Assembly (NCBI GenBank): GCA_937872315.1
Contig: CALMST010000244.1
Location: 1 to 52,128 of the forward strand
DNA: 52,128 bases
Origin: an uncultured Ignavibacteria bacterium
GTDB lineage: Bacteria > Bacteroidota > Ignavibacteria > Tepidaquicellales > Tepidaquicellaceae
Direction: 5' to 3'
The translations under genes and the position numbers were made by a program. How positions within the stretch are numbered: position 1 is the first letter of the stretch; every line of letters begins with the position of its first letter. The notes beneath the pieces are model-generated. The model searched no databases, was not told the DNA's origin, and was given only the letters and a program-made list of their open reading frames with translations. This document shows, in pieces, positions 19,376 to 46,688 of this stretch.

Positions 19376-21730
19376 ATGGCTTTAAAAGAATACAAACCGG
19401 GGACAGCTTTCACCGGTGTAATTGGAAGAACATTTGATGTTTCGTCACCGGCATGACCCGAGCCCAAGCGTGCCAAAAAAGGAACGCCGAATGTTTTATT
19501 CATCGTTCAGGACGACACAGGTTTTGGAAATCTTGGTTGTTTCGGAAGTCCTATAAAAACACCTAATCTTGATTCACTCGCAAAAGGCGGTTTGATATAT
19601 AATAATATGCATACAACAGCTTTATGTTCACCAACCCGTTCATGCATACTCACCGGAAGAAATCATCATTCAAATGCAATGGCTTGCATAACGGAAGGCT
19701 CGGAAGGATTTCCGGGAAGCAACGGGTCCATACCATTTGAAAATGGATTCTTATCGGAAATGTTGTTGCAAAACGGTTACAATACTTATGCGGTAGGAAA
19801 GTGGCATCTTACTCCGGCAGAACAAAATTCAGCCGCCGGTCCTTATGACCGCTGGCCGCTAGGAAGAGGATTCGAAAGATTTTACGGATTTCTCGGAGGA
19901 GATACCAGCCAGTATTATCCTGATCTTGTTTATGATAATCATCAGGTGGAACCTCCAAAAACTCCTGAAGAAGGTTATCATCTTACAGTTGATCTGACTG
20001 ATAAAGCCATCGGTTTTATAGCGGACTCAAAGCAGGTAGCTCCTGACAAACCTTTCTTTTTGTATTTCTGTCCGGGAGCGATGCATGCACCGCATCAGGT
20101 ACCGAAAGAATGGGCTGATAAATATAAAGGTCAGTTTGATAAAGGCTGGGATGATTACAGAGAGAAGACTTTTGCAAGACAAAAGAAACTTGGGATAATA
20201 CCAAAGGATGCTGTTTTATCACGCCACGATCCTGATGTTCAGGACTGGAAGAAACTTTCTGCAGATGAAAGAAAATTATTTTCAAGAATGATGGAAGTAT
20301 TTGCGGGATTCCTCGAACATACCGACCATCAGTACGGAAGATTATTTCAGTTTTTAAAAGATATGAAATTATGGGATAATACTCTGATCATGTTCATTTC
20401 GGATAACGGAGCAAGCTCTGAAGGTGGTCCTACCGGATCCACTAATGAAAATAAATTTTTCAATAATGTACCTGAGGATCTGGAAGAAAATCTGAAAGCC
20501 ATGGATGAACTTGGCGGACCAAAATATTTCAATCATTATGCATGGGGCTGGGCGCACGCAGGTAACACTCCGTTTAAGAGATGGAAACGTGAAACATACA
20601 GGGGAGGAGTTTCAGATCCGTTTTTAGTTCACTGGCCAAAAGGTATTAAATCCAAAGGTGAAACGAGAACCGCATTTACCCATGCAATAGATATGCTGCC
20701 GACTGTACTGGATGCGCTCAACATTACTCCGCCGGATTCGATAAAAGGTGTATCTCAGTCACCGATACAGGGTAAGAGTTTTGCCAGAACTTTTGATGAT
20801 AAAAAATCTAAAGGAGATCACATAACGCAATACTTTGAAATGTTTGGTCACCGGTCTTTGTATCATGACGGATTCAGAGCCGTTTGTCCTTGGCCCGGTG
20901 ATTCTTTTACTGAGTCAGGACTTGGATTCGGAGCTCCAATAGATGCTGCAAAGCTTACAGAGCTGGATGCAAATAACTGGGAATTGTATGATCTTACAAA
21001 AGATCCTACGGAAACAAATAACATTGCAAAAAATAATAAGGCAAAGTTGATAGAGATGATTGCGCAGTGGTATGTGGAAGCCGGAAAATATGATGTGCTG
21101 CCGGTTGACTCACGCGGAACCTTGAGATTTACTGATGAAAGACCGCAGATTGCTGAAGCCAGGAAATCTTATACATATTATCCTGGTACTCAAACGGTAC
21201 CATCATTTGCTGCTGTCGATGTTATGAACCGTTCTTTTAGTATCACAGCAGATGTAGATATTCCAAAAGACGGCGCTGAAGGTGTCATTTTTTCATTCGG
21301 AGGAAATGACGGAGGTGTTACTTTTTATATTAAAGATAAAAAACTTCACTTCGGATATAATTATGTCGGTTCAGAATATTTTTATGTCTCATCCGTCGAT
21401 GATGTACCAAAAGGAAGACAGAAGTTAAGATTAGAATTTGAAATATCCGGTAAACCAAACTTTGAAATAGGAAAAGGTGCTCCCGGCACGGCGCAGCTTT
21501 ATTTCGGAAAAAAGCTAAAAGGTCAGAATGATTTCAAAACTACGCTTCCTATTGCATTTGGACTCGGCGGAGGTGTTCATATAGGCAGAGATACAGGTTC
21601 TGCTGTGGTACCGGTATATAAACCGCCGTTTGATTTTACAGGTAAAATTTATTCTGTAACTGTCGATGTGAGCGGAGATCTGATAAAGGATGATGAAGCA
21701 ACAATGAAAGCTATCATGGCCAGGCAGTAG
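19376..21730 (+). pseudogene. Arylsulfatase interrupted by in-frame TGA at codon 27
   Basis: From ATG 19376, preceded by an intact AGAAAGGA, the frame is 785 codons long and open except for TGA at 19454-19456 (codon 27). The 27214 paralogue has TGG (Trp27) at this position in the same PA-W-P context. All catalytic elements lie downstream: Asp46-Asp47, the Cys84-Ser-Pro-Thr-Arg88 formylglycine site, GKWH at 141-144, the GAMHAPH His, SDNG and the FKRWKRETYRGG Lys block, then the ~200-residue C-terminal LamG-like domain. No ATG, GTG or TTG lies in frame between the TGA and the Asp pair. The next start, TTG at 19592, would lose it. So it is either newly inactivated or expressed by readthrough. 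No other damage is seen. Confidence 0.8.
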
Positions 21731-21758
21731 AGCAATTATCACTATACAATTATCAATT

Positions 21759-21792
21759 ACTCCTTCTTTTGTTTTACCGGGAAGGAGTTTTT
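21759..21792 (+). terminator. Intrinsic terminator after TGA-interrupted sulfatase
   Basis: Stem ACTCCTTC / GAAGGAGT with a 14-nt loop and a T tail. The 3' arm and preceding bases (ACCGGGAAGGAGTTTTT) are identical to those of the terminator after the 27214 sulfatase, so the duplication included the 3' flank. Confidence 0.8.
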
Positions 21793-22030
21793 ATTTAACC
21801 GGTCTTTACATGATTACTATTGGTATTTATACAAAATTAAAGTTTTGAAAATTTAAATAAACGTCTGTGATAAATTACCATTTCGAAATAATTTTTCCGA
21901 TGCTATTGGTATTCCAAAAAGTCTGATCAAAGAGTGTCGTGAAATTATGCAATTAAAACGTTTATACTTTCTGGAACAATAACAACGGTGATGATTTTAT
22001 TTCGGATATTTCTGATTTATCAGCATGTAT

Positions 22031-22068
22031 GTCCAAAACGTTTTAATGAAACATAGAATAGATTCATC
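22031..22068. repeat. Dispersed repeat family C, copy 2 (38 bp)
   Basis: Begins GTCCAAAACGTTTTAATG and ends ATAGATTCATC. It is the ungapped partner of 12335-12372 (31 of 38 positions), in the same orientation. Confidence 0.55.
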
Positions 22069-22239
22069 AGCACTCTGAATGCCTTTTTTCTTAAAAACTT
22101 TTTTAATAAAAATCATCTGATTTTTTATATTCAGATTAAATTCAGATTATTAAAGAGTAAATCATATAAATCTTTTTATACAAGATTGCCTGTTTACATA
22201 TATAATTTAAAAATCTTATGTTTGATTATGCAGTAGATA

Positions 22240-23067
22240 TTACAGATCCGTTATCTTCAGTTCTTTTAAAATTTTATAAGTAATTCCTCTTCTAGAATTA
22301 TTGAATAAATCAGCCCGTTCATTATCATCAATATTTTTACTGTCTGTCTGCACACAGATTGCGAAATAATATACATTATCATTCGCTTCGGCATATCCGA
22401 CAAACCATCCTATATCTAAATTATCCTGACTTCCCCAGCCGGATTTTCCTCTTAAGACATAGCCGGCAGTATCATTTTCTATCATTATCTCTTTAACTAT
22501 ATCCAGCGAGCGTTGTGAAAAGGGGAGTTTATTTGTGTTCAATCTTATCAGAAAATCTATTTGTTCTGATGGAGTGATCCGCAGTCCGCCTGTAAGCCAG
22601 AATTTATCAATCCCTCCGGACGTATCTGCATTGCCGTAATCAGCTGTATCCAGCCAGTATTGCATTCTCTCTCCTCCGACTCTTCTTGCAAGCTCCCGGT
22701 AATACCAGACAGTTGAATTTTTAAAGGCATTTTTGAGATCATAATCCTTATCCCAAACCGGATTTCTCTGCACGCTGTCCCAGGGGATCACAAAATTTTC
22801 ATCAGGTATTACACCGGTTTCAAGTCCTATAAGGGAATTACATATCTTGAATGTGGAAGCCGGGGTAAATTGACGATTGTATTGTTCCTGATTATAAAAT
22901 ATGAATCTGTCTGCTTTGCTGTCATATACTACAGCTGAACCTTCAACCTGATATTCATCAAAGTATTTTCTGAATTCATCCCGTATTTCAATCGTCTGTG
23001 AATATCCGGGCAACAAATAAAATATCATAATCAAAAAGATTGTCAGAACTTTTATTTTTCTTATCAT
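22240..23067 (-). CDS. Class D beta-lactamase (OXA-type)
   Basis: A 275-residue serine beta-lactamase with a Sec signal peptide (cleavage near GYSQ) and all class D motifs in register: Ser71-Thr-Phe-Lys74 (active serine and carbamylated lysine), Ser118-Thr-Val120, Tyr144-Gly-Asn146, Lys208-Ser-Gly210 and Trp221-Phe-Val-Gly224. The length is that of typical OXA enzymes. It acts in the periplasm on penicillins and possibly other beta-lactams; the spectrum cannot be inferred. No mobile element or integron feature flanks it and its composition matches the neighbours, so it looks like an intrinsic chromosomal gene. It could instead be a related BlaR1-sensor-like domain, but it lacks any membrane receptor part. 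Confidence 0.93.
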   Translation of the reverse strand: MIRKIKVLTIFLIMIFYLLPGYSQTIEIRDEFRKYFDEYQVEGSAVVYDSKADRFIFYNQEQYNRQFTPASTFKICNSLIGLETGVIPDENFVIPWDSVQRNPVWDKDYDLKNAFKNSTVWYYRELARRVGGERMQYWLDTADYGNADTSGGIDKFWLTGGLRITPSEQIDFLIRLNTNKLPFSQRSLDIVKEIMIENDTAGYVLRGKSGWGSQDNLDIGWFVGYAEANDNVYYFAICVQTDSKNIDDNERADLFNNSRRGITYKILKELKITDL

Positions 23068-23259
23068 TACTTTAAAAGATTAATTTTAAAATGCCAGCTG
23101 CTATCTGTTAATTACATAATGTTTTCAAATTTTTCCATCTGTTTTGAATTGCCGGTCTTAATCACTTCACACAATGCTTTCATTACTTTTCCGCCTTTAA
23201 AAAAATATTAATTCCGGGAGGAAATTCAAATGAATATTCTGAATTCAAAAATCTGATTA

Positions 23260-23781
23260 TCAGGATATTACAAGTTTCATCAAAAGATCTGTCTGATCAT
23301 CATTGCCATATCTGAATATGTGCTTGTCAAATTCTATGAATCCGGATTTTTTATAAAATGCAATTGCCCTGTGATTATTTTCCCAGACACCAAGCCAAAT
23401 ATAGTTTAACTTATTCCTTAAGGCTGTTTCTAAAGCTTTATCAAACAGTATCTTGCCGATTCCCTTTCCGTGATATTCCTTATACACGTAAATTCTTTCG
23501 ATCTCCAGTGAGTCGGGGTCGTTAAGGTCAGACTGGGCTTTATTGAAATTTATTTTTAGATAACCGATCACTTTATTATCCGACTCAGCCAGAAAGAATT
23601 CAGAATCGGGATTTGTTAGTTCCTTCAGTACTTTTTCCGGATCAAAACTTTCACTCAGATATTTCTCAGTATTCTCATCTTCATTACTCAGAGCAAATGT
23701 TTCTATTATAGTGTAAATGCCTATCTTACGGATCTTTTCCAGGTCACAGATGCTTGCTTTGGTCAGTTTAATATTAAGCAT
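23260..23781 (-). CDS. GNAT family N-acetyltransferase
   Basis: A 173-residue single-domain GNAT protein. Motif A (ERIYVYKEYHGKGIGKILF) supplies the acetyl-CoA pyrophosphate-binding Gx-GxG-type loop, and motif B is NHRAIAFYKKSGF. The preceding strand FLAESDNKVIGYLKINF is also typical. The C-terminal GNDDQTDLLMKLV is the usual final strand. It transfers an acetyl group from acetyl-CoA to an unknown amine. It is followed by the beta-lactamase gene about 190 bases away and is probably an independent unit. Confidence 0.88.
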   Translation of the reverse strand: MLNIKLTKASICDLEKIRKIGIYTIIETFALSNEDENTEKYLSESFDPEKVLKELTNPDSEFFLAESDNKVIGYLKINFNKAQSDLNDPDSLEIERIYVYKEYHGKGIGKILFDKALETALRNKLNYIWLGVWENNHRAIAFYKKSGFIEFDKHIFRYGNDDQTDLLMKLVIS

Positions 23782-23842
23782 ATTAAGAAATAATATAACT
23801 CTGTTTATTTTAAAATATTAAATCCGGGTTATTGAATCTGAC

Positions 23843-24307
23843 TTATATCCAGAACTCATCTTCGGAATTTTCACAGAATTTTTCATCCTTGTGATGTTTC
23901 CTGATTTTTTCTAACTCTTCATCAGTAGCTGCAGTTTGTATCTTATTAAACAATACTCTTTCTTCAAACCTGATATGCTTTTCAAGTTCTTCTGAGATCT
24001 GTTTCAAAGAACTTTCTAAATCCGGAATATTATTATTCTTAAAAAGTTTTTCGAGTATCTTATGTTCTTTCAATGCCTGTTTTACGAGTTCGTTATCATT
24101 TCCCAAAACGGGAAATACATATTCTTCTTCGATCTCAAAATGTTCAATCAGATGAGTTTTGTAAAACCAGTCAGTATAAACTTTCATTCTTTCCGGGGAA
24201 ATACCTTTTAAAAATCCTCTTCTGATTTTCCAGCAAAGCAATAGTCCGTGATGATGATCTCTGCTTAGTGGCCGGATTGCCGGATCTCGTTTTATTGGAT
24301 TGCTCAT
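23843..24307 (-). CDS. Hemerythrin HHE domain protein
   Basis: About 154 residues of helical bundle with the hemerythrin-like metal-ligand pattern: RDHHHG near residue 20, HLIEHFEIEEEYVFP near 70, KEHKILEKLF near 100, and HIRFEERVLF near 130. Such proteins bind a di-iron centre and serve in oxygen, NO or iron handling. I start at ATG 24307; a TTG at 24313 would add two residues. It lies 36 bases after the membrane protein gene at 24344 and may be cotranscribed with it. Confidence 0.87.
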   Translation of the reverse strand: MSNPIKRDPAIRPLSRDHHHGLLLCWKIRRGFLKGISPERMKVYTDWFYKTHLIEHFEIEEEYVFPVLGNDNELVKQALKEHKILEKLFKNNNIPDLESSLKQISEELEKHIRFEERVLFNKIQTAATDEELEKIRKHHKDEKFCENSEDEFWI

Positions 24308-24343
24308 AAACAAAAAGTTTAATTTTGAAAAGAAGTAAGCTCT

Positions 24344-24997
24344 TCAAGCCGAAATTCTATTTCTGTCAACAATGAATGCTATGATCACAAACAGCCATTG
24401 CAACTGTCCTGCCCATGCAATTGCATTTACGCTTGGCGGTGGCGGTCCGAAAATATTTGCAATTTGAATCAATACAAGAAAAGAAATAAGAAAAACGAGA
24501 AGATATTTTCCTGTTCTGTTAACAGGTTTTGTTGCTTTATAATAAATGAAGACCCCTGTGAAAAAAATCAGACCTTCTATTATCACTGATAAATAAGGAT
24601 AGTTCCAGAGTCCGAAACCTGTTTTCATAGAATCTTCAGCAGGCAGCAACGGGAGGTCAGGTCTGTGAACGATCAGATCAAGAAACCAGTGACTTATTAC
24701 ACACACAAAAATTACTAATGAATATCTGAATTTTTTTAAAAACAGAAAAGAAACAATTCCTAAAATCAATCCCCATACAGTTACCATTAAAAGGCTGTGG
24801 GATAACGGATAGTCCGTAAAATCCAGCGGAGTTAATTTTGTGATGCCGGGAGAGATCACCACGTGCTCAATATTCAGAAGTAGTAAAGTCGGCCAGATAA
24901 GATCAAGGAATTGCGCTGCAATGAAAAGATATCCAAGCGATATTACAGGAGCATATTTCTTTGCTCCAAACCCGACTCCGAAATGACCTATGAACAT
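24344..24997 (-). CDS. YdjM/DUF457-like membrane protein
   Basis: A 217-residue protein with six or seven hydrophobic helices. N-terminal MFIGHFGVGFGAKKYAP and conserved polar residues in AAQFLDLIWP, DYPLSHSLLM and SHWFLDLIVHRPDLPL match the membrane-bound metal-dependent hydrolase-like YdjM group. The regularly spaced His/Asp inside helices suggest a metal site. No substrate is known. The gene appears to head a small operon with the hemerythrin gene. Confidence 0.8.
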   Translation of the reverse strand: MFIGHFGVGFGAKKYAPVISLGYLFIAAQFLDLIWPTLLLLNIEHVVISPGITKLTPLDFTDYPLSHSLLMVTVWGLILGIVSFLFLKKFRYSLVIFVCVISHWFLDLIVHRPDLPLLPAEDSMKTGFGLWNYPYLSVIIEGLIFFTGVFIYYKATKPVNRTGKYLLVFLISFLVLIQIANIFGPPPPSVNAIAWAGQLQWLFVIIAFIVDRNRISA

Positions 24998-25005
24998 TTT
25001 AAAAT

Positions 25006-25047
25006 AAAAGTTAAAAGTTAAAAGTTAAAAGATAAAAATTAAAAGTA
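25006..25047. repeat. Tandem array, 7-bp unit x6
   Basis: Three exact copies of AAAAGTT followed by three diverged copies, beginning nine bases upstream of the YdjM-like start codon. Confidence 0.85.
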
Positions 25048-25198
25048 AATTCCCGGATCCCAGTTCTGAAATGGTCTTTTGTCCCGGTAATAATCTCCGG
25101 TCCGATATGTGTTTTTCATTTTTCCTGTTTTTCTAATGATCTGTGTTAAGTACATAATTAAAGTTGAACGCTTCTGATCAACAGCAATTGATCAATGA

Positions 25199-25340
25199 TT
25201 TTTTTGCCGGGAATTAACACAAATTATCATGAATAATGTATTCTTATAAATTAAATTTTTGCAGATCCTTTAAAATCAGCGTTAATCTGTGGCTAAACCT
25301 TAGTTTCATTATCTGACAGTCAACCTAAGTTACTTTATTA
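25199..25340 (+). repeat. Dispersed repeat family A, copy 2
   Basis: Carries the AATCTGTGGCTAAA core at 25284-25297 and aligns over ~130 bases with 5650-5775 and 33410-33530, in the same orientation. Confidence 0.6.
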
Positions 25341-25411
25341 AACTCATAAGGAAAAACTGCTGAAGGTATTCTTAAAACCAGGTATTCAATTTTATAAAAT
25401 ATCGTATTGCT

Positions 25412-26098
25412 TTAAGGAGCCAGTCTTTTTTTTGTCCATACCTTATCATTAAGTGTGTAAAGAATCCTGTCATGTAACCGGCTTGCCCGTCCCTGCCAGA
25501 ATTCTATACTGACCGGATTTAAGCAATAACCTCCCCAGTTTTCAGGTCTCGGTACGGGCTTGTTCTCAAATTCTTTATTAAGCTCCAGTACTTTTTTTTC
25601 AAGCTCTTCCCTGCTTTTTATTACGCTGCTTTGTGAAGATGCAACTGCGCTTATCTGGCTACCCCGCGGACGACTGTGAAAATATTTATCGGATTCATCG
25701 CCGGATATTTTTTCTGCAACCCCTTCGATCCTTACTTGCCTGTACAACTCAAACCAAAGAAAGGTCATTGATGCATTTGAATTATTAATAAGTTCTGATC
25801 CTTTCCTGCTGTCATAATTTGTATAAAATACAAATCCCTTTTCATCAAAACCTTTTAAAAGCAAAACCCTTCCTGAAGGCTTACAATCAGCTGAGACAGT
25901 TGAAAGATGCATTATGTTTGGTTCAGGGATTTTATTTTTCACTGCTTCATTAAACCATATTTCAAACTGAAATATCGGATCATCTGACATATTAACCTCA
26001 TCGATTCCGTCAGATAAATATTCAGTTCTGAAATTCGCAACTAATTGCCGGATAGATTTATTTTGAAACTGACCTTTTATGTCATTTAGGAAACTCAA
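25412..26098 (-). CDS. pdxH: Pyridoxamine 5'-phosphate oxidase
   Basis: A 228-residue FMN-dependent oxidase that converts pyridoxamine/pyridoxine 5'-phosphate to pyridoxal phosphate with O2, the last step of vitamin B6 salvage. FMN-site residues are visible in RVLLLKGFDEKGFVFYTN and YDSRKGSEL. The C-terminal IEFWQGRASRLHDR matches the family signature almost residue for residue, ending in the usual RLAP. Length is typical. It is cytoplasmic, with no operon partner. Need for O2 fits with the O2-dependent FGE and beta-type aerobic lifestyle suggested elsewhere. Confidence 0.96.
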   Translation of the reverse strand: MSFLNDIKGQFQNKSIRQLVANFRTEYLSDGIDEVNMSDDPIFQFEIWFNEAVKNKIPEPNIMHLSTVSADCKPSGRVLLLKGFDEKGFVFYTNYDSRKGSELINNSNASMTFLWFELYRQVRIEGVAEKISGDESDKYFHSRPRGSQISAVASSQSSVIKSREELEKKVLELNKEFENKPVPRPENWGGYCLNPVSIEFWQGRASRLHDRILYTLNDKVWTKKRLAP

Positions 26099-26123
26099 TT
26101 TTTTAATTTTGAATATAGATTAA

Positions 26124-26214
26124 AGAGTTACGAATTACGAATTAAGAGTTACGATTTACGAATAACGAATTACGAGTTACGAGTTACGAGTTACGAATAA
26201 CGAATAACGAATTA
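26124..26214. repeat. Tandem array, 7-bp unit x13
   Basis: Thirteen contiguous copies of a CGARTTA/CGAATAA-type heptamer with point variation between copies, beginning about 25 bases upstream of the pdxH start codon. Confidence 0.9.
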
Positions 26215-26259
26215 TTAGTGACTTAATTTTAAATAAATTTATTATTGCTGATCATAAAC

Positions 26260-26308
26260 ACTCAATACTCAATACTCAATACTCAATACTCAATACCCAA
26301 TATTCAAT
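26260..26308. repeat. Tandem array, 7-bp unit x7
   Basis: Seven copies of ACTCAAT, the last two each with one change. The heptamer is unrelated to the CGARTTA unit 46 bases away. The same heptamer appears twice near 15170. Confidence 0.9.
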
Positions 26309-27041: not shown

Positions 27042-27072
27042 TTGCTATAGATAGAAATGATTTCTAATTTTG
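27042..27072 (+). promoter_or_regulatory. Candidate Bacteroidota-type promoter for sulfatase
   Basis: A -7 box TAATTTTG (27065-27072, TAnnTTTG consensus) lies 20 bases after a partial -33 box TTG (27042-27044). The implied leader before ATG 27214 is about 135 bases. The assignment rests on consensus match only. Confidence 0.35.
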
Positions 27073-27213: not shown

Positions 27214-29568
27214 ATGGCACTAAAGGAATACAAACCGGGAACAGCTTTTTCCGGTGTAATAGGAAGGACATTTGACCAGTCAACACCAGCCTGGCCAATG
27301 CCAAACCGCGCAAAAGAAGGAGCTCCGAATGTTCTGTTCATAGTTCAGGATGATACAGGATTCGGGCAAATGGGATGTTACGGAAGCCCTATCAGCACAC
27401 CCAACATAGATGCGCTTGCAAAAGAAGGATTACTCTTCAACAATATGCATACTACTGCATTGTGCTCTCCTACAAGATCTTGTATACTAACCGGAAGGAA
27501 TCATCATTCAAATGCAATGGCCTGCATCACTGAAGGTTCGACAGGATACCCGGGCGCAAATGGAAATATTCCATTTGAGAATGGATTCTTATCTGAAATT
27601 TTAAAAGAAAACGGTTACAATACTTATGCTCTGGGAAAATGGCATTTAACACCAGCCGAACAGAATTCCGCAGCCGGACCTTATGACCGCTGGCCGCTTG
27701 GAAGAGGATTCGAAAGATATTACGGATTCCTTGCCGGAGATACGCATCAGTATTATCCCGAGCTGGTATATGATAATCATCAGGTAGATCCTCCCAAAAC
27801 TCCTGAAGAAGGTTACCATCTTACCGTAGATATAACCAACAAAGCTATGGGATTCATTGCGGATTCAAAACAGATCGCTCCGGATAAGCCATTTTTTATG
27901 TATTTCTGTCCTGGCGCGGGTCATGCGCCTCATCAGGTTCCGAAAGAATGGGCTGATAAATATAAAGGAAAGTTTGATGAAGGATGGGATGCGTACAGAG
28001 AAAAAGTCTTTGCAAAACAAAAGGAGCTTGGCATCATACAGGAAGATGCTGTGCTTTCAAGACACGATCCTGATGTTCAGAACTGGGAAAAATTATCTGA
28101 TGATGAAAGAAGACTGTATTCAAGAATGATGGAAGTGTTTGCCGGATTTCTTGAACATACAGATCATCAGTACGGAAGACTGTTCCAGTTTCTAAAAGAC
28201 ATAGGGGAGTGGGATAATACGCTGATCATGTTTATTTCAGACAACGGAGCAAGCGCGGAAGGCGGACCTACCGGCTCGGTAAACGAGAATAAGTTTTTCA
28301 ATAATGTACCGGACAGTCTGGAGCAGAATCTTGCAGCAATAGATGATATAGGCGGACCAAAATATTACAATCATTATCCATGGGGCTGGACTTTTGCCGG
28401 CAATACTCCATTCAAAAGATGGAAACGCGAAACATACAGAGGCGGGGTCAGCGACCCGTTTATTGTTCACTGGCCGAAAGGTATTAAATCAAAAGGTGAG
28501 ATCCGCGAACAATATGCTCATGCAATTGACATGGTGCCGACTGTTCTCGATGCGCTGGGAATTGAAGCGCCTTTAGAGATCAAAGGAACAACACAGTCGC
28601 CAATCCAGGGAAACAGTTTTGCGCATGCTTTTAATGACGGCAATGCTGAAACCAAACATAAAGTTCAGTATTTCGAAATGATGGGTCATCGCTCGATCTA
28701 TCACGATGGGTGGAGAGCGGTATGTCCCTGGCCGGGTGAATCATTTACTGAAGCTGGCATGGGATTCGGAGCGCCGATAGATGCGGCTAAACTCACGGAA
28801 CTTGATGCAAACAGCTGGGAGCTTTACGATCTCTCAAAAGATCCGACCGAGATGAATGATCTTGCCAAAGTCAACAGACCGAAACTTATAGAAATGGTTT
28901 CGCAGTGGTATGTGGAGGCAGGTAAATATAACGTTCTTCCTATAGACAGCAGAGGAGTTGAAAGGCTGGCTGAACCAAGACCGCAGATTGCAGGACCGAG
29001 AAGTACATATACATATTACCCTCTCACGCAATCAGTACCGGGTAACGCCGCGGTTAATATTCTTAACAGGTCACATTCAATAACTGTCGATGCTGAGATA
29101 CCGGAAGGCGGAGCAGAAGGTGTCCTTTTCAGTATGGGCGGATGCGACGGAGGTTTTACTTTATACATACAGGATAAAAAACTTCATTACGGTTACAACT
29201 ATGTTACATCGGAATATTTCTATGTAAGATCTGTAGATGATGTAACGGAAGGAAGACATAAATTCAGATTTGAGTTTGAAGTCAAAGGGAAACCTGACTT
29301 TGCAATAGGAAAAGGAACACCCGGTTCAGCTCAGTTGTATATAGATGATAAACTTGTTGGTGATAACGAATTTCCATATACAATTCCTTTATCAATCGGG
29401 CTCGGGGCAGCTGTTTCAGTCGGTTCAGATCCCGGTTCTCCGACAATACCTGATTATCAGCCTCCCTATGATTTTACCGGGACAGTCTATAAAGCCGTAG
29501 TGGATGTAAGCGGTGAGCTGATCAAAGATGATGAAGCAACGCTTAAAGCGCTTATGGCAAGACAGTAA
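27214..29568 (+). CDS. Arylsulfatase, 784 residues, intact PAWP-type copy
   Basis: A type I sulfatase lacking a signal peptide. Metal ligands are Asp46-Asp47 (VQDDTGFG) and Asp343-Asn344 (ISDNGASAEG). The formylglycine site is Cys84-Ser-Pro-Thr-Arg88, followed by SCILTGRNHH. Lys142/His144 (GKWH), His237 (GAGHAPH) and the Lys in NTPFKRWKRETYRGG complete the active site. Residues ~620-784 form a concanavalin/LamG-like beta domain of unknown ligand. The N-terminal linker holds Trp27 in a PAWP motif, the codon that is a stop in both sister genes. AGAAAGGA (27201-27208) lies five bases from the ATG. It hydrolyses sulfate esters in the cytoplasm; substrate is unknown. It is a single-gene unit with its own terminator. 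Confidence 0.94.
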   Translation: MALKEYKPGTAFSGVIGRTFDQSTPAWPMPNRAKEGAPNVLFIVQDDTGFGQMGCYGSPISTPNIDALAKEGLLFNNMHTTALCSPTRSCILTGRNHHSNAMACITEGSTGYPGANGNIPFENGFLSEILKENGYNTYALGKWHLTPAEQNSAAGPYDRWPLGRGFERYYGFLAGDTHQYYPELVYDNHQVDPPKTPEEGYHLTVDITNKAMGFIADSKQIAPDKPFFMYFCPGAGHAPHQVPKEWADKYKGKFDEGWDAYREKVFAKQKELGIIQEDAVLSRHDPDVQNWEKLSDDERRLYSRMMEVFAGFLEHTDHQYGRLFQFLKDIGEWDNTLIMFISDNGASAEGGPTGSVNENKFFNNVPDSLEQNLAAIDDIGGPKYYNHYPWGWTFAGNTPFKRWKRETYRGGVSDPFIVHWPKGIKSKGEIREQYAHAIDMVPTVLDALGIEAPLEIKGTTQSPIQGNSFAHAFNDGNAETKHKVQYFEMMGHRSIYHDGWRAVCPWPGESFTEAGMGFGAPIDAAKLTELDANSWELYDLSKDPTEMNDLAKVNRPKLIEMVSQWYVEAGKYNVLPIDSRGVERLAEPRPQIAGPRSTYTYYPLTQSVPGNAAVNILNRSHSITVDAEIPEGGAEGVLFSMGGCDGGFTLYIQDKKLHYGYNYVTSEYFYVRSVDDVTEGRHKFRFEFEVKGKPDFAIGKGTPGSAQLYIDDKLVGDNEFPYTIPLSIGLGAAVSVGSDPGSPTIPDYQPPYDFTGTVYKAVVDVSGELIKDDEATLKALMARQ

Positions 29569-35259: not shown

Positions 35260-37635
35260 ATGAGTTTAGAAAGTAAATTACACAGGTCTCATCTTCCTAT
35301 ACCTAGCAAACAATTTAAAGGGTATATAGCATACGACGGTAAGGATCCTGATTCTAAATTTCCACCAATCAAATCGATACACCCCCCTGAAGGCGCCCCA
35401 AATGTTCTCTTAATACTTATCGATGATGCAGGGTTCGGATCATCAAGCGCTTTTGGAGGTCCCTGTTATACACCTAATGCTGAAAAGCTCGCGGCAGGAG
35501 GTTTGAAATTAAAACGGTTTCATACGACAGCATTATGCTCACCTACAAGACAGGCTTTGCTTACCGGACGTAATCATCATTCGGCAGGCATGGGCTGCAT
35601 TACGGAAGTTGCTACCGGAGCTCCCGGTTATTCTTCCGTTCTTCCGAATACAATGGCACCACTAGCAAAGACTCTTAAACTGAACGGATATTCAACTGCT
35701 CAATTCGGTAAATGCCATGAAGTCCCTGTCTGGGAAACCAGTCCGGCAGGACCTTTCAATGCATGGCCATCCGGCGGCGGCGGATTTGAGTATTTCTACG
35801 GATTCATCGGCGGTGAAGCTAATCAGTGGTATCCGACACTTTATGAAGGTACGGTTCCTGTCGAACCGGATAAAACCCCGGAAGAAGGTTATCATCTTGT
35901 CGATGATATGACGGATAAAGCAATTGCATGGGCAGGTCAGCAGAAAGCTCTATTGAGCGACAAGCCATTCTTTATGTATTTTGCTCCCGGAGCCACGCAT
36001 GCCCCGCACCATGTACCGAAAGAATGGGCGGATAAATACAAAGGAAAGTTTGATGCAGGATGGGACAAACTCCGTGAGGAAACTTTTGCAAGACAACTGA
36101 AACTTGGAGTGATTCCTCCTGACAGTCAGCTTACAGAACGTCCTAAAGAGATCCCTGCTTGGGATGATATGCCTGAAGACATGAAGCCCGTTTTACGGCG
36201 TCAGATGGAAGTTTATGCAGGTTTTATGGAATATACAGATTATCACGTCGGAAGGCTGCTTGATTCGCTGGAGAATCTGAATATTCTTGATGATACGCTT
36301 GTATATTATATTATAGGAGATAACGGAGCATCAGCAGAAGGTACTCTCAACGGCACCTATAATGAGATGCTTAACTTCAACGGTCTTGCATCGCTTGAGA
36401 CTCCGGAATTCCTGATGGAAAGGCTTGATAAGCTCGGCGGACCTGATTCCTATAATCACTATGCTGTCGGTTGGGCACATGCTCTAAATACACCCTATCA
36501 ATGGACGAAGCAGGTAGCATCGCACTGGGGCGGTACAAGGAACGGAACGATCATTCACTGGCCAAACTACATTAAGGGTAAAGGTGAAATGCGTGACCAG
36601 TTCAGCCATGTCATTGATGTGGCACCTACCATACTTGAAGCTGCCGGAATTCCCGAGCCGATTTCTGTCGACGGTGTTCAACAGCATCCTTATGAAGGAG
36701 TAAGCATGTTGTATTCATTCAATGATGCAAAGGCACCTGAAGCACATCAGACACAGTATTTTGAGATGTTCGGCAACAGGGGCATTTACCATAACGGCTG
36801 GACTGCAGTTACAAAACATAAAACACCATGGCTATTAATGGGTGAGGTTACTCCTCCTTTCGATGATGACGTCTGGGAGTTATACGATACAAATAAAGAC
36901 TGGACCCAGGCAAATGATCTTTCAAAGGAAATGCCTGAAAAACTTCATGAACTTCAGAGATTATGGCTAATGGAAGCTGTCCGTTATAATGTATTACCAC
37001 TGGATGATGATCTTGCAAAAAAAATGAATCCTGATACAGCAGGCAGACCAATTCTCATAAAAGGAAATTCACAAATACTTTTCGGAGGTATGGGGAGATT
37101 GTCCGAAAATTGCGTTATCAGCATAAAGAATAAGTCGCATTCAGTAACAGCTGAAATTGTGGTACCTGAATCAGGCGCGGAAGGTGTAATAATCGCTCAG
37201 GGCGCTAATATAGGAGGCTGGAGTCTTTATGCAAAAGACGGCAAGCTGAAATATTGCTATAACGTGGGTGGCATAAATTATTATTATGTCGAATCGGAAA
37301 ATAAAATACCTTCGGGAAAACATCAGGTAAGGATGGAATTCGCTTATGATGGCGGAGGTCTTGGAAAAGGCGGTACAGTTTCACTGTTCGTCGACGGTAA
37401 AAAAGACGGTGAAGGAAAAGTCGCCATGACGCAATCCATGGTATTCTCTGCAGATGACGGATGCGATGTAGGTGAAGACACCGGCGCACCGGTTTCCCAG
37501 GATTATGGTCCGCTTGGAAACCGCTTCAATGGAAAGGTAATTGGAGTTCAGCTTGCTATTTCTGACGATGCTGTGAATTCAGATCATATGGTCGATCCTC
37601 AGGAAGCTTTGCGAATTGCAATGGCAAGACAGTAA
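35260..37635 (+). CDS. Arylsulfatase, 791 residues
   Basis: A type I sulfatase without a signal peptide. Asp55-Asp56 (LIDDAGFG) begin the metal site. The formylglycine site is Cys93-Ser-Pro-Thr-Arg97, then QALLTGRNHH. The Lys/His pair lies in FGKCHEVP (Lys151, His153), where Cys replaces the Trp of the usual GKWH. GATHAPHHVP and IGDNGASAEG follow, then the TKQVASHWGGTRNG block in place of the KRWKRETYRGG of the PAWP-type copies, so this is a different subfamily. The last ~170 residues form a LamG-like beta domain. It is cytoplasmic; substrate is unknown. It ends with a strong terminator and is a single unit. Confidence 0.93.
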   Translation: MSLESKLHRSHLPIPSKQFKGYIAYDGKDPDSKFPPIKSIHPPEGAPNVLLILIDDAGFGSSSAFGGPCYTPNAEKLAAGGLKLKRFHTTALCSPTRQALLTGRNHHSAGMGCITEVATGAPGYSSVLPNTMAPLAKTLKLNGYSTAQFGKCHEVPVWETSPAGPFNAWPSGGGGFEYFYGFIGGEANQWYPTLYEGTVPVEPDKTPEEGYHLVDDMTDKAIAWAGQQKALLSDKPFFMYFAPGATHAPHHVPKEWADKYKGKFDAGWDKLREETFARQLKLGVIPPDSQLTERPKEIPAWDDMPEDMKPVLRRQMEVYAGFMEYTDYHVGRLLDSLENLNILDDTLVYYIIGDNGASAEGTLNGTYNEMLNFNGLASLETPEFLMERLDKLGGPDSYNHYAVGWAHALNTPYQWTKQVASHWGGTRNGTIIHWPNYIKGKGEMRDQFSHVIDVAPTILEAAGIPEPISVDGVQQHPYEGVSMLYSFNDAKAPEAHQTQYFEMFGNRGIYHNGWTAVTKHKTPWLLMGEVTPPFDDDVWELYDTNKDWTQANDLSKEMPEKLHELQRLWLMEAVRYNVLPLDDDLAKKMNPDTAGRPILIKGNSQILFGGMGRLSENCVISIKNKSHSVTAEIVVPESGAEGVIIAQGANIGGWSLYAKDGKLKYCYNVGGINYYYVESENKIPSGKHQVRMEFAYDGGGLGKGGTVSLFVDGKKDGEGKVAMTQSMVFSADDGCDVGEDTGAPVSQDYGPLGNRFNGKVIGVQLAISDDAVNSDHMVDPQEALRIAMARQ

Positions 37636-40061: not shown

Positions 40062-40191
40062 AAAAAACGGATTAATTGAAATTCTTTGGAACAGTAAAAT
40101 AACAATTACTTATTCAAAATTTAAGCATATTAAAATTCTGAGCAATGGTTTAACTTCCGTTAATGTTTTTATTAATTCAATTATTAAAAAA

Positions 40192-40632
40192 ATGATCAGA
40201 TCAATTTATTCAACTTCGGCCATTGTTCTGATATTGATATTTTTATCAGCATGTTCAGGCAGTAAATCCGAACCTGAAAAAATCACCGAGTCAGTAATGA
40301 TAGATAAAATATCAAGATCAGCCGGTCTGACAAGAAGTCAGGCTCAGATCGGTTTAAGCGCTTTAATGATATTGTCAGAATATAAACTCTCGCCGGAAGA
40401 ATTCACGAAGCTGACCGGTGATCTACCGGGAGGGGATAATCTTTTTAAACTTGCCTCAGATCTTGGGTTTGATTCCGGTTCTGTTACTACTTCTGCAGGT
40501 ATCATACAGATCCTGGTCAATCTCGGAGCCAATCCGGTGGATGCGGGAAGATTTCTGTCATCTGTATTGGGTTTTTCAAAGGAAATTGAAGGGGGTGTAT
40601 TTGGTTTGCTTTCAAAAGTATACGAAGACTGA
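40192..40632 (+). CDS. DUF2780 family lipoprotein
   Basis: A 146-residue lipoprotein (lipobox LSAC, Cys21). The mature domain is helical and matches DUF2780: ISRSAGLTRSQAQIGLSALM, LSPEEFTKLTGDLPGG, SAGIIQILVNLGANPVDAGR. Family function is unknown. It is paralogous to 42293-42730; the two flank the convergent or divergent 40655-42088 gene. Its stop lies 22 bases from the 3' end of that gene, on the opposite strand. Confidence 0.82.
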   Translation: MIRSIYSTSAIVLILIFLSACSGSKSEPEKITESVMIDKISRSAGLTRSQAQIGLSALMILSEYKLSPEEFTKLTGDLPGGDNLFKLASDLGFDSGSVTTSAGIIQILVNLGANPVDAGRFLSSVLGFSKEIEGGVFGLLSKVYED

Positions 40633-40654
40633 CAAAAGGAAACAAATAAGAACT

Positions 40655-42088
40655 TCACTGATTGCTGATCTCTAACTCATTAATTTTATCCGTTAACCAG
40701 TTTTTCCAGTGCAGTTCATTTGAATTTGCAAAAGCATACTTCAGGTCATGAAGTATGTTCTTCTTACCGGTTTCTTTATAACTCAACAGGTACGTCAGAA
40801 TCTTTAAGAAATTCATCACTCCTTTCCTGTTAATATCAGTCAGTTGTGAATTCTTGTTAACATATTCCTGAAATCTTTTTTTGATAATCATGCATTCTAC
40901 AATATTTCCCAGATCAAAATATGAAAATATCTGTATAGAATAAAAGTCAAGATTGTGGATGTAAAAATTGCTTTTTACTTTTTTAATATGATCGATCGCA
41001 TCCTGATAATTTTTCCGGTAATAACTGATGAATGCATATGCTGTATTTACGTTGTTTTCTTTAATGGATGAAGGAAGAAAACGGGAATATTCAGTTAAAA
41101 AATCTTCAGCCCATTTGTCTTCCTTTACCTGTAAAGCTGCATATATATAGTCCCTGAAATGATTCTCACCGATTTTTAACTGTTGAAGATCTTCAATGAA
41201 ACCGTTTTCGATCTTTGATTTAAGAATTCCGAACAAATCAGCTGATGTATCCTTTTTGCTTCTGTTTGAAACAATATTGCATAAGTTTATAAGTGCAATG
41301 TAAATATCGGAACTGAAACTTTTTGAAAAATTACTGACATTATTTAGTATTTTGTTTTTTAATATTTTGAATAATTTATAATCTGCAGGATCGTTAACTG
41401 AGCAGTTCATGTCATAAAGCAGTCTGAACAATTCATTGTATTCAGGATACTTCGAGGAAATAATATCAATAATTCTATTCAGGTCAATATGTGTTATGAT
41501 CTTATCCTGAAGGAGTTCGGCTTTATTTTCGTAAAATTCTTTTCTGAACTTATCTTCAATATTGGAAGACAGTATCTCCAAAATGAATGCTAAATTCTTA
41601 TAATCTGAATTCATCTCATGCACGGTATGAAATCGATCAGACAAACCATTTTTTATTAATTCCAGCATATATAAATATGCCGAATTATGAATGTCTTTAA
41701 ACTTAAAAAAGTAAAATTCAGAGGAGATCAGATCTCTGACTTCATTTTTATATTCAAAGAAAAGAAGCTTTCTTAATCCTCTTTTACTGAGCTGATTTCT
41801 TTTCAGATCATGCATTTTCTTTTCATTCCCTGTGACTTCTTTCAGAGCCAGGAATTCACCAATGGTTCTTGTCAGTTCTGAATAAATATTCCAAATGCTT
41901 CTTTCGGAATATTTATCGTCGAGATACTTATGCAGATCCTCTCCATTATATATCTTTTCGATTATGAATTCAGAAAGCCTTGGTCTTTTTATAAATGAAA
42001 GTCTTAGAAATTCACAGAACTCTTTTTTCTCTGTTTCAGAAAGTGTCTTAAAAATCGTAAAAAATTTATTATTTTTTTTAACTTTCAT
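40655..42088 (-). CDS. Unknown TPR-like helical protein (paralogue of 16719-18212)
   Basis: A 477-residue, Lys/Glu/Leu-rich helical protein without signal or membrane segments. The N-terminal FFTIFKTLSETEKKEFCEFL matches the start of the 16719 product in type. The helical pair YSELTRTIGEFLALKEVT aligns with YLSRLYKLAEAFLDLSE there, and both have a late tetratricopeptide-like region (AYAFISYYRKNYQDAIDHIK). The family is common in Bacteroidota/Ignavibacteria but uncharacterised. ACCCGGAA lies directly before the ATG, as in the paralogue. It sits between two DUF2780 lipoprotein genes on the opposite strand. Confidence 0.78.
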   Translation of the reverse strand: MKVKKNNKFFTIFKTLSETEKKEFCEFLRLSFIKRPRLSEFIIEKIYNGEDLHKYLDDKYSERSIWNIYSELTRTIGEFLALKEVTGNEKKMHDLKRNQLSKRGLRKLLFFEYKNEVRDLISSEFYFFKFKDIHNSAYLYMLELIKNGLSDRFHTVHEMNSDYKNLAFILEILSSNIEDKFRKEFYENKAELLQDKIITHIDLNRIIDIISSKYPEYNELFRLLYDMNCSVNDPADYKLFKILKNKILNNVSNFSKSFSSDIYIALINLCNIVSNRSKKDTSADLFGILKSKIENGFIEDLQQLKIGENHFRDYIYAALQVKEDKWAEDFLTEYSRFLPSSIKENNVNTAYAFISYYRKNYQDAIDHIKKVKSNFYIHNLDFYSIQIFSYFDLGNIVECMIIKKRFQEYVNKNSQLTDINRKGVMNFLKILTYLLSYKETGKKNILHDLKYAFANSNELHWKNWLTDKINELEISNQ

Positions 42089-42292
42089 TTCCGGGTAATA
42101 AATAATTCATTTTGTCCAAATTAATTCTAAAAACAGCAATTATCTACATAATTTTAAAGGTAAGAAATAAAAAAGCATCGTTTTGAAAATATCAGGTTAT
42201 TAAATAAATTGTACGAATTTGAAAAATATTATTTTTTCCGAATAATATTTCAATGAATCCCCCAATGTTTAATTAACTAAAAATAAAAAAAA

Positions 42293-42730
42293 ATGAGCAA
42301 ATTAATTTCTTCTGCTTTACTATTAGTATTAGCAGTTGTATTCCTTTCAGGATGTTCCGGAAGTAAATCAACAACAAATGCATTAACTCAGTCCGGAATG
42401 GTAAACCAACTTTCCAAAGAACTTGGAATGACAAAAGATCAGACCGAGGCAGGTCTGGGAGCAATAATGATGTTGTCAAAAGATAAATTATCTCCGGATG
42501 ATTTTTCAAAGCTCAGCAAAGGAATTCCGGGAGGAACATCAAGTCTGATCAGTGAAGCGACAAAGCTTGGAGTAGTTCCGGGTTCTGTAAGCTCAACTGC
42601 AGATATAATTCAGGTTCTTACAAAACTTGGAGTAAGTCCCGTACAGGCAGCTAAATTCACAGGATCTGTACTGAAGTTTGCCGGCAGTCTCGGTGGAAGC
42701 ACACTCGGACTTTTGTCTAAAGTGTTATAA
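42293..42730 (+). CDS. DUF2780 family lipoprotein (paralogue)
   Basis: A 145-residue lipoprotein (lipobox LSGC, Cys21, followed by the same SGSKS tail as its paralogue). The helical DUF2780 domain shows LSKELGMTKDQTEAGLGAIM, LSPDDFSKLSKGIPGG and TADIIQVLTKLGVSPVQAAK. The OmpA gene starts 53 bases later with a strong ribosome-binding site and no terminator between, so the two may be cotranscribed. Function is unknown. Confidence 0.85.
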   Translation: MSKLISSALLLVLAVVFLSGCSGSKSTTNALTQSGMVNQLSKELGMTKDQTEAGLGAIMMLSKDKLSPDDFSKLSKGIPGGTSSLISEATKLGVVPGSVSSTADIIQVLTKLGVSPVQAAKFTGSVLKFAGSLGGSTLGLLSKVL

Positions 42731-42770
42731 GAGTAATCATAATTACGGAAAAATAAATTATTAAATTTTA

Positions 42771-42777
42771 AAAGGAG
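42771..42777 (+). promoter_or_regulatory. Shine-Dalgarno that fixes a TTG start
   Basis: AAAGGAG ends six bases before TTG 42784. This, plus the perfect signal peptide encoded from that codon, establishes the non-ATG start of the OmpA gene. Confidence 0.75.
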
Positions 42778-42783
42778 ATAAAT

Positions 42784-44214
42784 TTGAAAAAGTATTTCTT
42801 ATTTTTTATCACAATATTTGCTTTTTTTGCATTTAATGCAAATGCGCAATTCAAAAATTATGGGGTTAAAGGAGGAATTCAATATCAGCAGTTACTTCCT
42901 TTTTCCGAGTTTGACGCAAGATTTTCATTTCTAGCAAGAGGTTTTGTTAATTTTGAATTAACAAATACTTTATCATTAGACCTTGGCGCAGGTTATGGTC
43001 AGTATAAGACTGATGATCATTTTAATACATATCCTGCATCTTCTCCTGGAGATCATGATGTTTCAACAGATATAATTCCTGTTGATGTAAGATTGAGAAT
43101 TGCTCCATTTCCTTCCAAAAACTGGAATCCATATTTTTATTTTGGCGGAGGAGTAGTAAAATATAATGTCCAAAATGTGCCTGGTGATACTGCTATTCCT
43201 CAATTTGATACCAAGGAGAGCGGATGGGCAGGGTATTTCCCTGTGGGAATAGGTACGGAAGCAAGATTATCGGATAATGTCTTACTTGATATTAATGGAG
43301 GAGTGTCATATACAACCACAGATCTGTTAAATAATTTTGTTATTCCGGATTTTCAGGATGCTTCAGCTAATCTTGGAATCGGTTTGACTTTTGCCGGAAG
43401 CGATCTATGTGAAACTGATGAGGACAGAGACGGACTTACCTATTGCAGAGAAGAACAGTTAGGAACAGATCCTGAGAATCCAGATACAGACGGTGACGGA
43501 TGTAAGGACGGAGAAGAGGTTGATGTTTATCTGACAAATCCTCTAAATGTGGATACTGACGGAGACGCATTGAATGATTGTGATGAGATAAGGATCCATT
43601 CAACAAATCCGTTAAAGATGGATACAGATGCGGACGGGCTAAATGATTATGATGAAATTAATAAATACTCAACACTTCCGACCAATCCTGATACTGACGG
43701 TGACGGATTAAAAGACGGCGCGGAGGTATTAACTCATAAGACAGATCCTAAGAACAAAGATACTGATGCAGGAACTGTGGGAGACGGAGTTGAAGTGGGA
43801 AGAGGTTCTGATCCTTTAGATCCGTCAGATGATCTTCCGCCGCCTCCACCACCTGAAGAAAAGGTAAAAGTAGGTGATGTGATTACACTTGAAGGAATCA
43901 ACTTTGCTACAAACAGCTGGCAGATCACATCGCTTGCAGAAGATAAACTCGAAGTAGCATTAAATTCACTTAAAGATAATCCGAATGTTGAAGTCGAGAT
44001 CATTGGACATACAGACAATACCGGACGCAGAGCCTGGAATATGGAATTATCAGAAAAGAGAGCTCAGTCTGTTAAAGAGTGGTTTGTAAGTAAAGGTATC
44101 TCCGGATCCAGAATTACTACAATCGGTATGGGACCTGATGATCCGATCGCTCCTAACAATACTAAAGAAGGCAGGTATATGAACAGAAGGATCGATTTCA
44201 AAAGAATTAAATAA
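42784..44214 (+). CDS. OmpA-family protein with TSP3 repeats
   Basis: A 476-residue outer-membrane protein from a TTG start. A signal peptide (cleaved near NANAQ) precedes an eight-stranded barrel to about residue 205. About five thrombospondin type-3 calcium-binding repeats follow (DEDRDGLTYC, DTDGDGCKDGEEVDVY, DTDGDALNDCDE, DTDADGLNDYDE, DTDGDGLKDGAEV). A six-proline hinge leads to an OmpA peptidoglycan-binding domain from ~365 (INFATNSWQIT, HTDNTGRRAWNMELSEKRA). It links the outer membrane to peptidoglycan; the acidic repeats are a calcium-stiffened periplasmic spacer. A strong terminator follows. Confidence 0.93.
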   Translation: MKKYFLFFITIFAFFAFNANAQFKNYGVKGGIQYQQLLPFSEFDARFSFLARGFVNFELTNTLSLDLGAGYGQYKTDDHFNTYPASSPGDHDVSTDIIPVDVRLRIAPFPSKNWNPYFYFGGGVVKYNVQNVPGDTAIPQFDTKESGWAGYFPVGIGTEARLSDNVLLDINGGVSYTTTDLLNNFVIPDFQDASANLGIGLTFAGSDLCETDEDRDGLTYCREEQLGTDPENPDTDGDGCKDGEEVDVYLTNPLNVDTDGDALNDCDEIRIHSTNPLKMDTDADGLNDYDEINKYSTLPTNPDTDGDGLKDGAEVLTHKTDPKNKDTDAGTVGDGVEVGRGSDPLDPSDDLPPPPPPEEKVKVGDVITLEGINFATNSWQITSLAEDKLEVALNSLKDNPNVEVEIIGHTDNTGRRAWNMELSEKRAQSVKEWFVSKGISGSRITTIGMGPDDPIAPNNTKEGRYMNRRIDFKRIK

Positions 44215-44230
44215 ATAAGTGCTGATTACT

Positions 44231-44271
44231 AACTGCGTCTTTTTTAAATATATCAAAGACGCAGTTTTTTT
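44231..44271 (+). terminator. Intrinsic terminator after OmpA gene
   Basis: A 12-bp perfect stem (AACTGCGTCTTT / AAAGACGCAGTT, 44231-44242 and 44255-44266), with the second arm running into a T tail. Confidence 0.88.
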
Positions 44272-44310
44272 AAAAATATCGGTAAGTTTATTTTTATTAA
44301 ATTAACTCTA

Positions 44311-44340
44311 TAATAATGCCACCACTAATAATGCCACCAC
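44311..44340 (+). repeat. 15-bp tandem duplication of a start-codon region
   Basis: TAATAATGCCACCAC occurs twice head to tail, giving two in-frame ATGs (44316 and 44331) for the following sulfatase. Compared with its sisters, this gene has no AGAAAGGA-type ribosome-binding site upstream. Confidence 0.92.
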
Positions 44341-46688
44341 TAAAAGAATACAAATCCGGACAGACGTTTCCAGGAGTGATTGGAAGAACATATGATCAAT
44401 CGCAGCCTGCCTAGCCTGAACCAAACCGCGCTAAAGAAGGCGCTCCAAATGTATTGTTCATTGTCCTTGATGATACAGGTTACGGTCATCTCGGATGTTA
44501 CGGCAGTCCGATAAAAACACCTAACATTGACAGTCTGGCAAAGAATGGTTTATTGTATAATAACATGCATACCACCGCTCTTTGCTCTCCCACAAGATCC
44601 TGCATTCTTACAGGCAGAAATCATCATTCCAATCACGTTGGATGCCTCACTAACGGCTCTACCGGCTTTCCGGGGTTTGACGGATACATGCCTTTTGAAA
44701 ACGGAACGATGGCTGAGATACTTAAGGAAAACGGTTACAATACATATTGCATTGGTAAATGGCATCTGGCTCCTGAAGAGACAATGTCAGCAGCTGGTCC
44801 ATATGACCGATGGCCGCTTGGAAGAGGATTCGAAAGATATTACGGTTTTCTCGGAGGGGATACGCATCAGTATTATCCTGAGCTTGTACGCGACAATACA
44901 CAGACTGAACCTGAAAAGACACCGGAAGAAGGCTATCATCTTACTCCCGATCTTGTGGATCAGGCAAAATCAATGATCGCTGATTCTAAGCAGATCGCTC
45001 CGAATAAACCTTTCTTTATGTATTTCGCTCCCGGAGCAATGCATTCACCTCATCACGTTCCTAAAGAATGGGCGGATAAGTATAAAGGTAAATTTGACAA
45101 AGGATGGGATGCTTACAGAAAAGAAGTCTTCGAAAAACAGAAGAAGCTAGGCATCATTCCAAAGAATACGAAATTGTCCCGGCATGATCCTGATGTGCAG
45201 GACTGGAACAAGTTATCTAAAAAAGAGAAAAAGGTCTTTGCGAGAATGATGGAAGTATTTGCCGGATTTCTGACTCATACAGATCATTACATTGGTGAAC
45301 TTATGGATTTTTTAAAGAAGATCGGTGAATATGACAATACTCTTATCATGCTGATATCCGATAACGGTTCCAGCGCTGAAGGAGGTCCCACAGGATCAGT
45401 AAATGAATGCAGATTCTTCAATAACCTTCCTGATACTGTCGATGAGATCTATGAAAAACTGGATGAGATAGGCGGACCGGAATGTTTCAACCATTTCCCA
45501 TGGGGATGGACCCACGCCGGCAATACTCCTTTCAGGAGATGGAAAAGGGAAACTTACAGAGGAGGCATAAGCGATCCGTTCATTATTCACTGGCCTAAAG
45601 GTTTTAAATCAAAAGGAAAAGTAAGGACACAATATACTCATGCGATAGATATGGTACCAACAGTTCTGGAAGCCGCTGGAATAGATCCTCCGGGATCGAT
45701 CAAAGGAATAACTCAGTCACCCGTTGAAGGCGTAAGTCTCGTCAGTACTTTTGATAATGAGAAAGATTCCGGTAAACATGTCACACAGTATTTTGAAATG
45801 CTCGGGCATCGTTCCATTTATCATGACGGCTGGAGAGCTGTCTGTCCGTGGCCCGGAACTTCATTCACTGAATCGGGAAGAAAATTCGGAACTCCCATAG
45901 ATGATAAGACTCTCACTGAACTTGATATAAAAGGCTGGGAGCTTTATAATCTGAAAGAAGATTTTGCGGAGACAAAAGATCTTGCTCAGAAAGAAAAAGA
46001 TCGTCTTATCGCAATGATCGGTATGTGGTATATTGAAGCGGGAAAATACAACGTTCTTCCTGTTGACGGCAGGGGAACTCAGAGAATTGCAGAAGAAAGA
46101 CCTCAGATTGCCGGACCAAGAAGCAGATACATTCTTTATTCAGGGACACAAGCAATTCCGGCAAATGCCGCTCCGAAGATACTGAACAGACCTTATTCAA
46201 TTACGGCTGAAGTTGAAATTCCGAAAGGCGGGGCTGACGGAGTGCTGTTAAGCATGGGCGGCAATGACGGCGGAATTACTTTTTATGTTCAGGACGGATA
46301 CTTATGCTATGCAATGAATTATGTGACCATGGATTATTTTTATGTGAAGTCTGATAAGAAAATTCCTGATGGACATCATTTCCTGAGTATGGAATTCAAA
46401 CCGACAGGGAAAGCTGATCCAATGAAAGGTAAAGGAACACCAGGCGATGTAAAGCTGATGGTGGACGGGAAAGTTATAGGAAAGGGAAAATTCCCTGTTA
46501 CAACTCCTATCCGTCTTGGACAAGGCGCGCAGATGCAGGTAGGAAAAGATGCCGGATCATCAGTAATTCCGGATTATAAACCGCCTTTTTCATTTTCAGG
46601 AAAAATAAACAGAGTAATTGTAGATGTCAGCGGGGAGGAAGTAGCCTATTATGAATCTGCAATGAAAATATTTTTAATGAAACAGTAG
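44331..46688 (+). pseudogene. Arylsulfatase interrupted by in-frame TAG at codon 28
   Basis: Counted from ATG 44331 the frame is 786 codons, open except for TAG at 44412-44414 (codon 28). Because the N-terminus is one residue longer, this aligns exactly with Trp27 of the 27214 gene and with the TGA of the 19376 gene. Downstream are Asp47-Asp48, Cys85-Ser-Pro-Thr-Arg89 plus SCILTGRNHH, GKWHLAPEE, GAMHSPHHVP, ISDNGSSAEG, FRRWKRETYRGG and the LamG-like C-terminal domain. A TTG at 44454 could restart and keep the Asp pair but would cut into the first beta strand. The ATG at 44316 is also in frame. Whether it is expressed is open. Confidence 0.8.

Follow-up and report, generated by a model that had tools for sequence, protein, structure and literature searches.

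The sulfatase genes and their in-frame stop codons

The stretch of DNA under study (hereafter the window, 52,128 nucleotides) is the entire contig CALMST010000244.1 of the draft genome GCA_937872315.1 of an uncultured Ignavibacteria bacterium (4.56 Mb, 386 contigs, 96% complete), and the closest matches among named relatives are Ignavibacteria. On its forward strand three paralogous sulfatase genes are located, two of which, copy A (start at 19376) and copy B (start at 44331), carry an in-frame stop codon in place of a conserved tryptophan (Trp) codon, while the third (27214 copy) is intact. The features are as follows.

19376..19453, plus strand: leader frame of copy A, 26 codons, with a ribosome-binding site (AAGAAAGGA) immediately upstream
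19454..19456, plus strand: TGA replacing the conserved Trp codon of copy A, context GCA TGA CCC
19457..21730, plus strand: post-stop frame of copy A, 757 open codons, PF00884, earliest ATG/GTG/TTG at 19592
27214..29568, plus strand: intact paralogue, 784 aa, TGG at the equivalent codon
44311..44340, plus strand: 15-bp tandem duplication (TAATAATGCCACCAC, twice) spanning the start codon of copy B, in-frame ATGs at 44316 and 44331
44331..44411, plus strand: leader frame of copy B, 27 codons
44412..44414, plus strand: TAG replacing the equivalent conserved Trp codon of copy B, context GCC TAG CCT
44415..46688, plus strand: post-stop frame of copy B, 757 open codons, PF00884, earliest TTG at 44454, within the first beta strand

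Alignment placed both stops in one column, namely the bracketed residue of the motif R-T-[FY]-D-x-S-x-P-A-[W]-P, and hence confirmed the original prediction, which had reported a TGA at 19454-19456, a TAG at 44412-44414 and a TGG in the 27214 copy at one shared Trp codon. Its further statement, that about 757 codons without frameshift follow each stop, likewise proved correct, as both frames are open to the normal C-terminus and retain the sulfatase signature and motifs: the C-x-P-x-R formylglycine motif (LCSPTRS) and the metal-ligand DD (VQDD/VLDD) are found in all three copies, and the interrupted ones also keep HHSN and KWHL. Among 201 columns that are invariant in the other full-length sequences, copy B alters none and copy A a single one (W to F). 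All three copies match the PF00884 profile with 184-233 bits (cut-off 25), and the post-stop parts of copies A and B alone score 184-219 bits. The catalytic domain (residues 37-566) aligns to residues 4-518 of the Pseudomonas arylsulfatase (E 1e-75). With this Pseudomonas aeruginosa enzyme (1HDH/4CXK) the copies have in common that they are type I sulfatases (PF00884) with the C-x-P-x-R formylglycine motif, but they differ from it by an N-terminal extension of approximately 36 residues, which holds the P-A-W-P motif and bears the stops, and by roughly 220 additional residues at the C-terminus. As to the predicted start of copy B at 44331, the frame was upheld but the start is not unique: because the 15-bp tandem duplication doubles it, the frame can also begin at 44316. 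The start region of copy B is without a clear ribosome-binding site.

Genetic code, tRNAs and recoding

Long open reading frames of the genome end with TAA (256), TGA (111) or TAG (60), and the 37 tRNA matches read by ARAGORN include one tRNA-Trp(CCA), which is ordinary. TGA and TAG thus end ordinary genes, and there is no codon reassignment, which the original prediction had already called unlikely. Neither a suppressor nor a selenocysteine (Sec) tRNA was found among the 37, with 150 of 268 first-look candidates scored, so that an odd suppressor could escape. The tRNA-Trp has 100% identity with its counterparts in relatives of the same genus and family, which have sense codons, and this identity excludes a Hirsh-type tRNA-Trp change as the difference of this genome. 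RNA structure 3' of the stops did not beat shuffled sequence (z 0.20 and -0.57); Sec insertion was rejected, as neither a tRNA-Sec nor a significant structure was found. The use of a downstream start, which the original prediction had also considered, was not borne out for copy A and was rejected, the next ATG/GTG/TTG being located 45 codons on, beyond the metal-binding DD. Functional recoding (by a suppressor tRNA, Sec insertion or reassignment) or a start behind the stop would accord with frames that remain open, and the catalytic core begins only at residue 37, meaning that residues 1-36 might not be needed. Given the tRNA set, the occurrence of two different stops, the lack of significant RNA structure and the missing start codon in copy A, this explanation is regarded as extremely improbable.

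Conservation of the codon, independence and age of the stops

The alignment of orthologues that had been proposed as a check revealed sense codons in the relatives: TGG is present in the close orthologues of the family (L013-L018, L022, L033) and in the relatives from GTDB that span the position, the sole exception being a TTT (L094). None of the relatives examined has a stop at this codon, and no further example turned up when 395 genomes from the phylum were searched. Since the relatives have TGG and none has a stop, the Trp is strongly conserved in the subfamily and the stops are private to this genome. Among relatives at about 40-48% identity, the Trp is sometimes missing entirely. A conserved regulated stop was rejected, as no relative examined shares it, and the earlier suggestion of a regulated site was not supported in this form.

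In the tree, copy A groups with a sequence from genome G013 (G013_C49, support 0.998) and copy B with sequences from genomes G002 and G022 (G002_C418 and G022_C40). Because the stops differ and the other members of each clade are sense, two separate events took place, and the stops arose independently; gene conversion, already discarded in the original prediction, offers no explanation as the stops differ. No second lesion was found in 2 x 2271 nt after the stops. Under neutrality this limits the distance since the stops to less than about 0.032 substitutions per site (95%), which is little compared with the synonymous divergence (dS) of 1.7-2.2 to the nearest orthologues. Both stops are very recent. 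The predicted independent and recent single G-to-A changes are therefore supported by separate sense clades, clean frames and the neutral bound.

A probable explanation: recent nonsense alleles among redundant sulfatases

The favoured reading, which is considered probable by a modest degree, is that the stops are recent nonsense alleles (null or near-null, be it as nascent pseudogenes or as population polymorphisms) among redundant sulfatases. One G-to-A change per paralogue at the first Trp codon converted TGG to TGA and TGG to TAG, respectively, upon which translation would mostly end after 26-27 residues, leaving null or near-null alleles. The presumed loss of function would be tolerated through redundancy, as there are three close paralogues at 66-77% identity, of which the 27214 copy stays intact, and five additional sulfatases at 40-46%, and the sharing of one codon would in part be a coincidence, TGG being a codon with two transition routes to stop.

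As is characteristic of nascent pseudogenes, the lesions are absent from the orthologues, which have TGG. Five sulfatase loci examined (L109, L113, L117, L128, L039) have internal stops at other codons, and such interrupted family members elsewhere were counted in favour of null alleles. Nascent bacterial pseudogenes in redundant families resemble the present case in having one lesion, an otherwise intact frame, an intact paralogue and one copy that seems to evolve faster; the difference is that here one codon was struck twice and that an unrelated third gene (see below) was struck at the same dipeptide. A single in-frame stop followed by a constrained frame is already described in bacteria, together with short evolutionary persistence, and stops shared at the same position were explained mainly as being similar to single-nucleotide polymorphisms or as tolerated by readthrough (Belinky et al. 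2021, PMC7918605). Here, by contrast, two paralogues of one genome carry different, clearly independent stops at one codon.

The pairwise ratio of nonsynonymous to synonymous divergence (dN/dS) downstream of the stops is 0.040-0.075, and the value near 1 that the original prediction had named as indicative of simple pseudogenes was not seen. Since the stops are too young, this low dN/dS predates them and cannot argue for present function. Lineage-specific substitutions were counted by three-taxon parsimony and gave nonsynonymous/synonymous counts of 49/111 for copy A versus 11/83 for its sister (p=0.0007); in the tree their branch lengths are 0.169 and 0.068, respectively. A faster branch of copy A is expected under relaxed constraint, but it depends on the choice of sister and outgroup.

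Further branch comparisons, the coincidence at one codon and the third gene weigh against the reading as null alleles. The acceleration of copy A shrinks with other sister or outgroup choices (p=0.18, 0.045), and copy B is not accelerated at all (29/117 versus 18/109 or 27/105). Where 273 codons are stop-prone and mutation is biased to a plausible extent, the probability that two single nonsense changes fall on one codon anywhere is 0.4-1.6%, and within the same model codon 27 is struck with a probability of 0.6-2.7% each. These figures agree with the approximately 1.5% estimated for independent orthologous stops (PMC7918605). The coincidence at one codon is hence unusual, at about 1-2%, but not astronomically so, and a reader who scans many features will meet such coincidences.

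The third gene was found in an unbiased, hexamer-based scan for interruptions, which covered 1.14 Mb (25% of the genome) with 754 long coding segments and identified few clear in-frame interruptions.

Contig C64, 3243-877, minus strand: gene with DUF308 and metallophosphatase domains (L284, PF03729/PF00149), TGA at 3132-3130

In this gene, 31 codons are followed by TGA-CC at codon 32 and then by 750 open codons. As in both interrupted sulfatases, it is the first Trp, part of a Trp-Pro pair close to the N-terminus, that has given way to the stop, and the orthologue in the near relative G002 has TGG at this site (SPVWPDSP versus API*PDGP); the post-stop dN/dS is 0.053. Trp-Pro codons account for 0.2-0.8% of the genome-wide nonsense-prone weight and for 2-4% of it within the gene. 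A third Trp-Pro case is thus not comfortably ascribed to plain chance, though it is one extra event, and the Trp-Pro context may matter, either through leaky reading of UGA-C or as a mutational hot spot. A search of the whole genome for the pattern CCNNNN-stop-CCYGA returned, in coding context, only the three known sites. That Trp-Pro pairs near gene starts form a class of recurrent-stop sites in this genome (three genes in a quarter of it), be it because readthrough by tRNA-Trp sets a low expression level or because a strain-specific modification raises mutation, is a conjecture to which little credence is given.

Less likely explanations: leaky stops, assembly artefacts or a mutational hot spot

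The main rival explanation, unlikely as it is judged to be, assumes that the stops are leaky and tolerated: the ordinary tRNA-Trp would misread UGA (and UAG less easily) before C, so that weak-expression alleles would yield some wild-type protein without dedicated machinery. All three stops replace Trp and have C at position +4; of 151 genuine TGA gene ends in this genome, only 13 are followed by C. If tRNA-Trp rescued translation in part, it would put the original residue back, which fits Trp and UGA but UAG less; UAG is a poor substrate for tRNA-Trp. That +4C raises readthrough, above all of UGA, was measured in yeast, and tRNA-Trp is known to misread UGA (PMC5289835); bacterial in-frame stops, moreover, are widespread and show downstream dN/dS below 1 (PMC7918605). 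In E. coli, however, Trp misreading of UGA occurs mainly with +4A, not C (PMC5289835), and the tRNA-Trp of this genome is the same as in relatives without such stops, so that nothing genome-specific would enable readthrough.

With a draft that is metagenome-derived and split into 386 contigs, it was also considered that the stop alleles are consensus errors or minority strain variants. Such an artefact is considered rather unlikely, as three events affect one kind of codon, none is a frameshift of the kind produced by noisy long reads, and each stop is a single G-to-A change in an otherwise clean frame.

A mutational hot spot would follow from the fact that Trp-Pro always contains TGGCC and thereby an unavoidable GGCC, where deamination of 5-methylated GGCC (or CCTGG) would convert TGG to TGA or TAG. 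Of all 4-base palindromes, GGCC shows the strongest depletion in the genome sample (observed/expected ratio, O/E, 0.29), and GCC makes up 2.8% of the Ala codons after G (versus 16.3%); with so strong an avoidance of GGCC, few sites are bound to keep it, the Trp-Pro pairs among them. This depletion, the location of all three stops within TGGCC and the presence of two 5-methylcytosine (m5C) methyltransferases together with Vsr on contig C114 speak for the idea. On the other side, GGCC is equally depleted in G002 (O/E 0.29), in which no match to the m5C methyltransferase family PF00145 was found, and reaches 0.44 in other family members. The transition products are not in excess (GACC/GGTC 0.92), and the lineage of this genome shows no heightened loss of GGCC (10 lost in this genome, G000, versus 19 in G002). 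The shift from GGC to GGT before C is general, being seen in other codon families, other Trp-Pro sites of the same genes are intact, and the match of the methyltransferase to HaeIII spans the catalytic motifs but omits the target-recognition region. A methylation hot spot at GGCC was therefore not supported, in view of the equal depletion in G002, the unraised loss and the general shift before C, and is considered very unlikely. The avoidance of GGCC resembles a relic of former restriction, such as is described in PMC4687349. The methyltransferases belong to an Mza-type defence island (L196, contig C114, 876-12154, minus strand), which has matches to MzaB, MzaC, MzaD and MzaE and includes an HNH protein, the two adjacent m5C methyltransferases and Vsr.

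The paralogues represent a clean natural case of parallel nonsense mutation within one genome, seen before further decay, and together with the third Trp-Pro case they make it testable whether Trp-to-stop changes persist through a leaky context. Should the alleles be nothing more than young nulls, the case would show a genome rich in sulfatases losing surplus copies, and copies A and B ought not to be annotated as active enzymes.

Neighbouring genes and further interruptions

The contig is rich in sulfatases, with at least six genes between 13518 and 50929 that are interspersed with outer-membrane protein genes. Besides the three copies described above, the following sulfatase genes were located.

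13518-15068, minus strand: sulfatase
35260..37635, plus strand: intact sulfatase, 791 aa
48614..50929, plus strand: intact sulfatase, 771 aa

Directly upstream of copy A, the minus strand at 18669-19150 holds what appears by eye to be a decayed, sulfatase-like remnant (LCLGKWHI*EKDVRWATDHGFDEWYG), of which the piece 18669-19010 gave no Pfam match. Elsewhere in the genome, a TAA was noted on the minus strand of contig C24 at 4638 (L218), where it lies inside a recognisable C-terminal sorting signal (PNPFNPSTNIT*GISELGQVSLKIYD) and constitutes a recent-looking nonsense change outside the Trp-Pro context.

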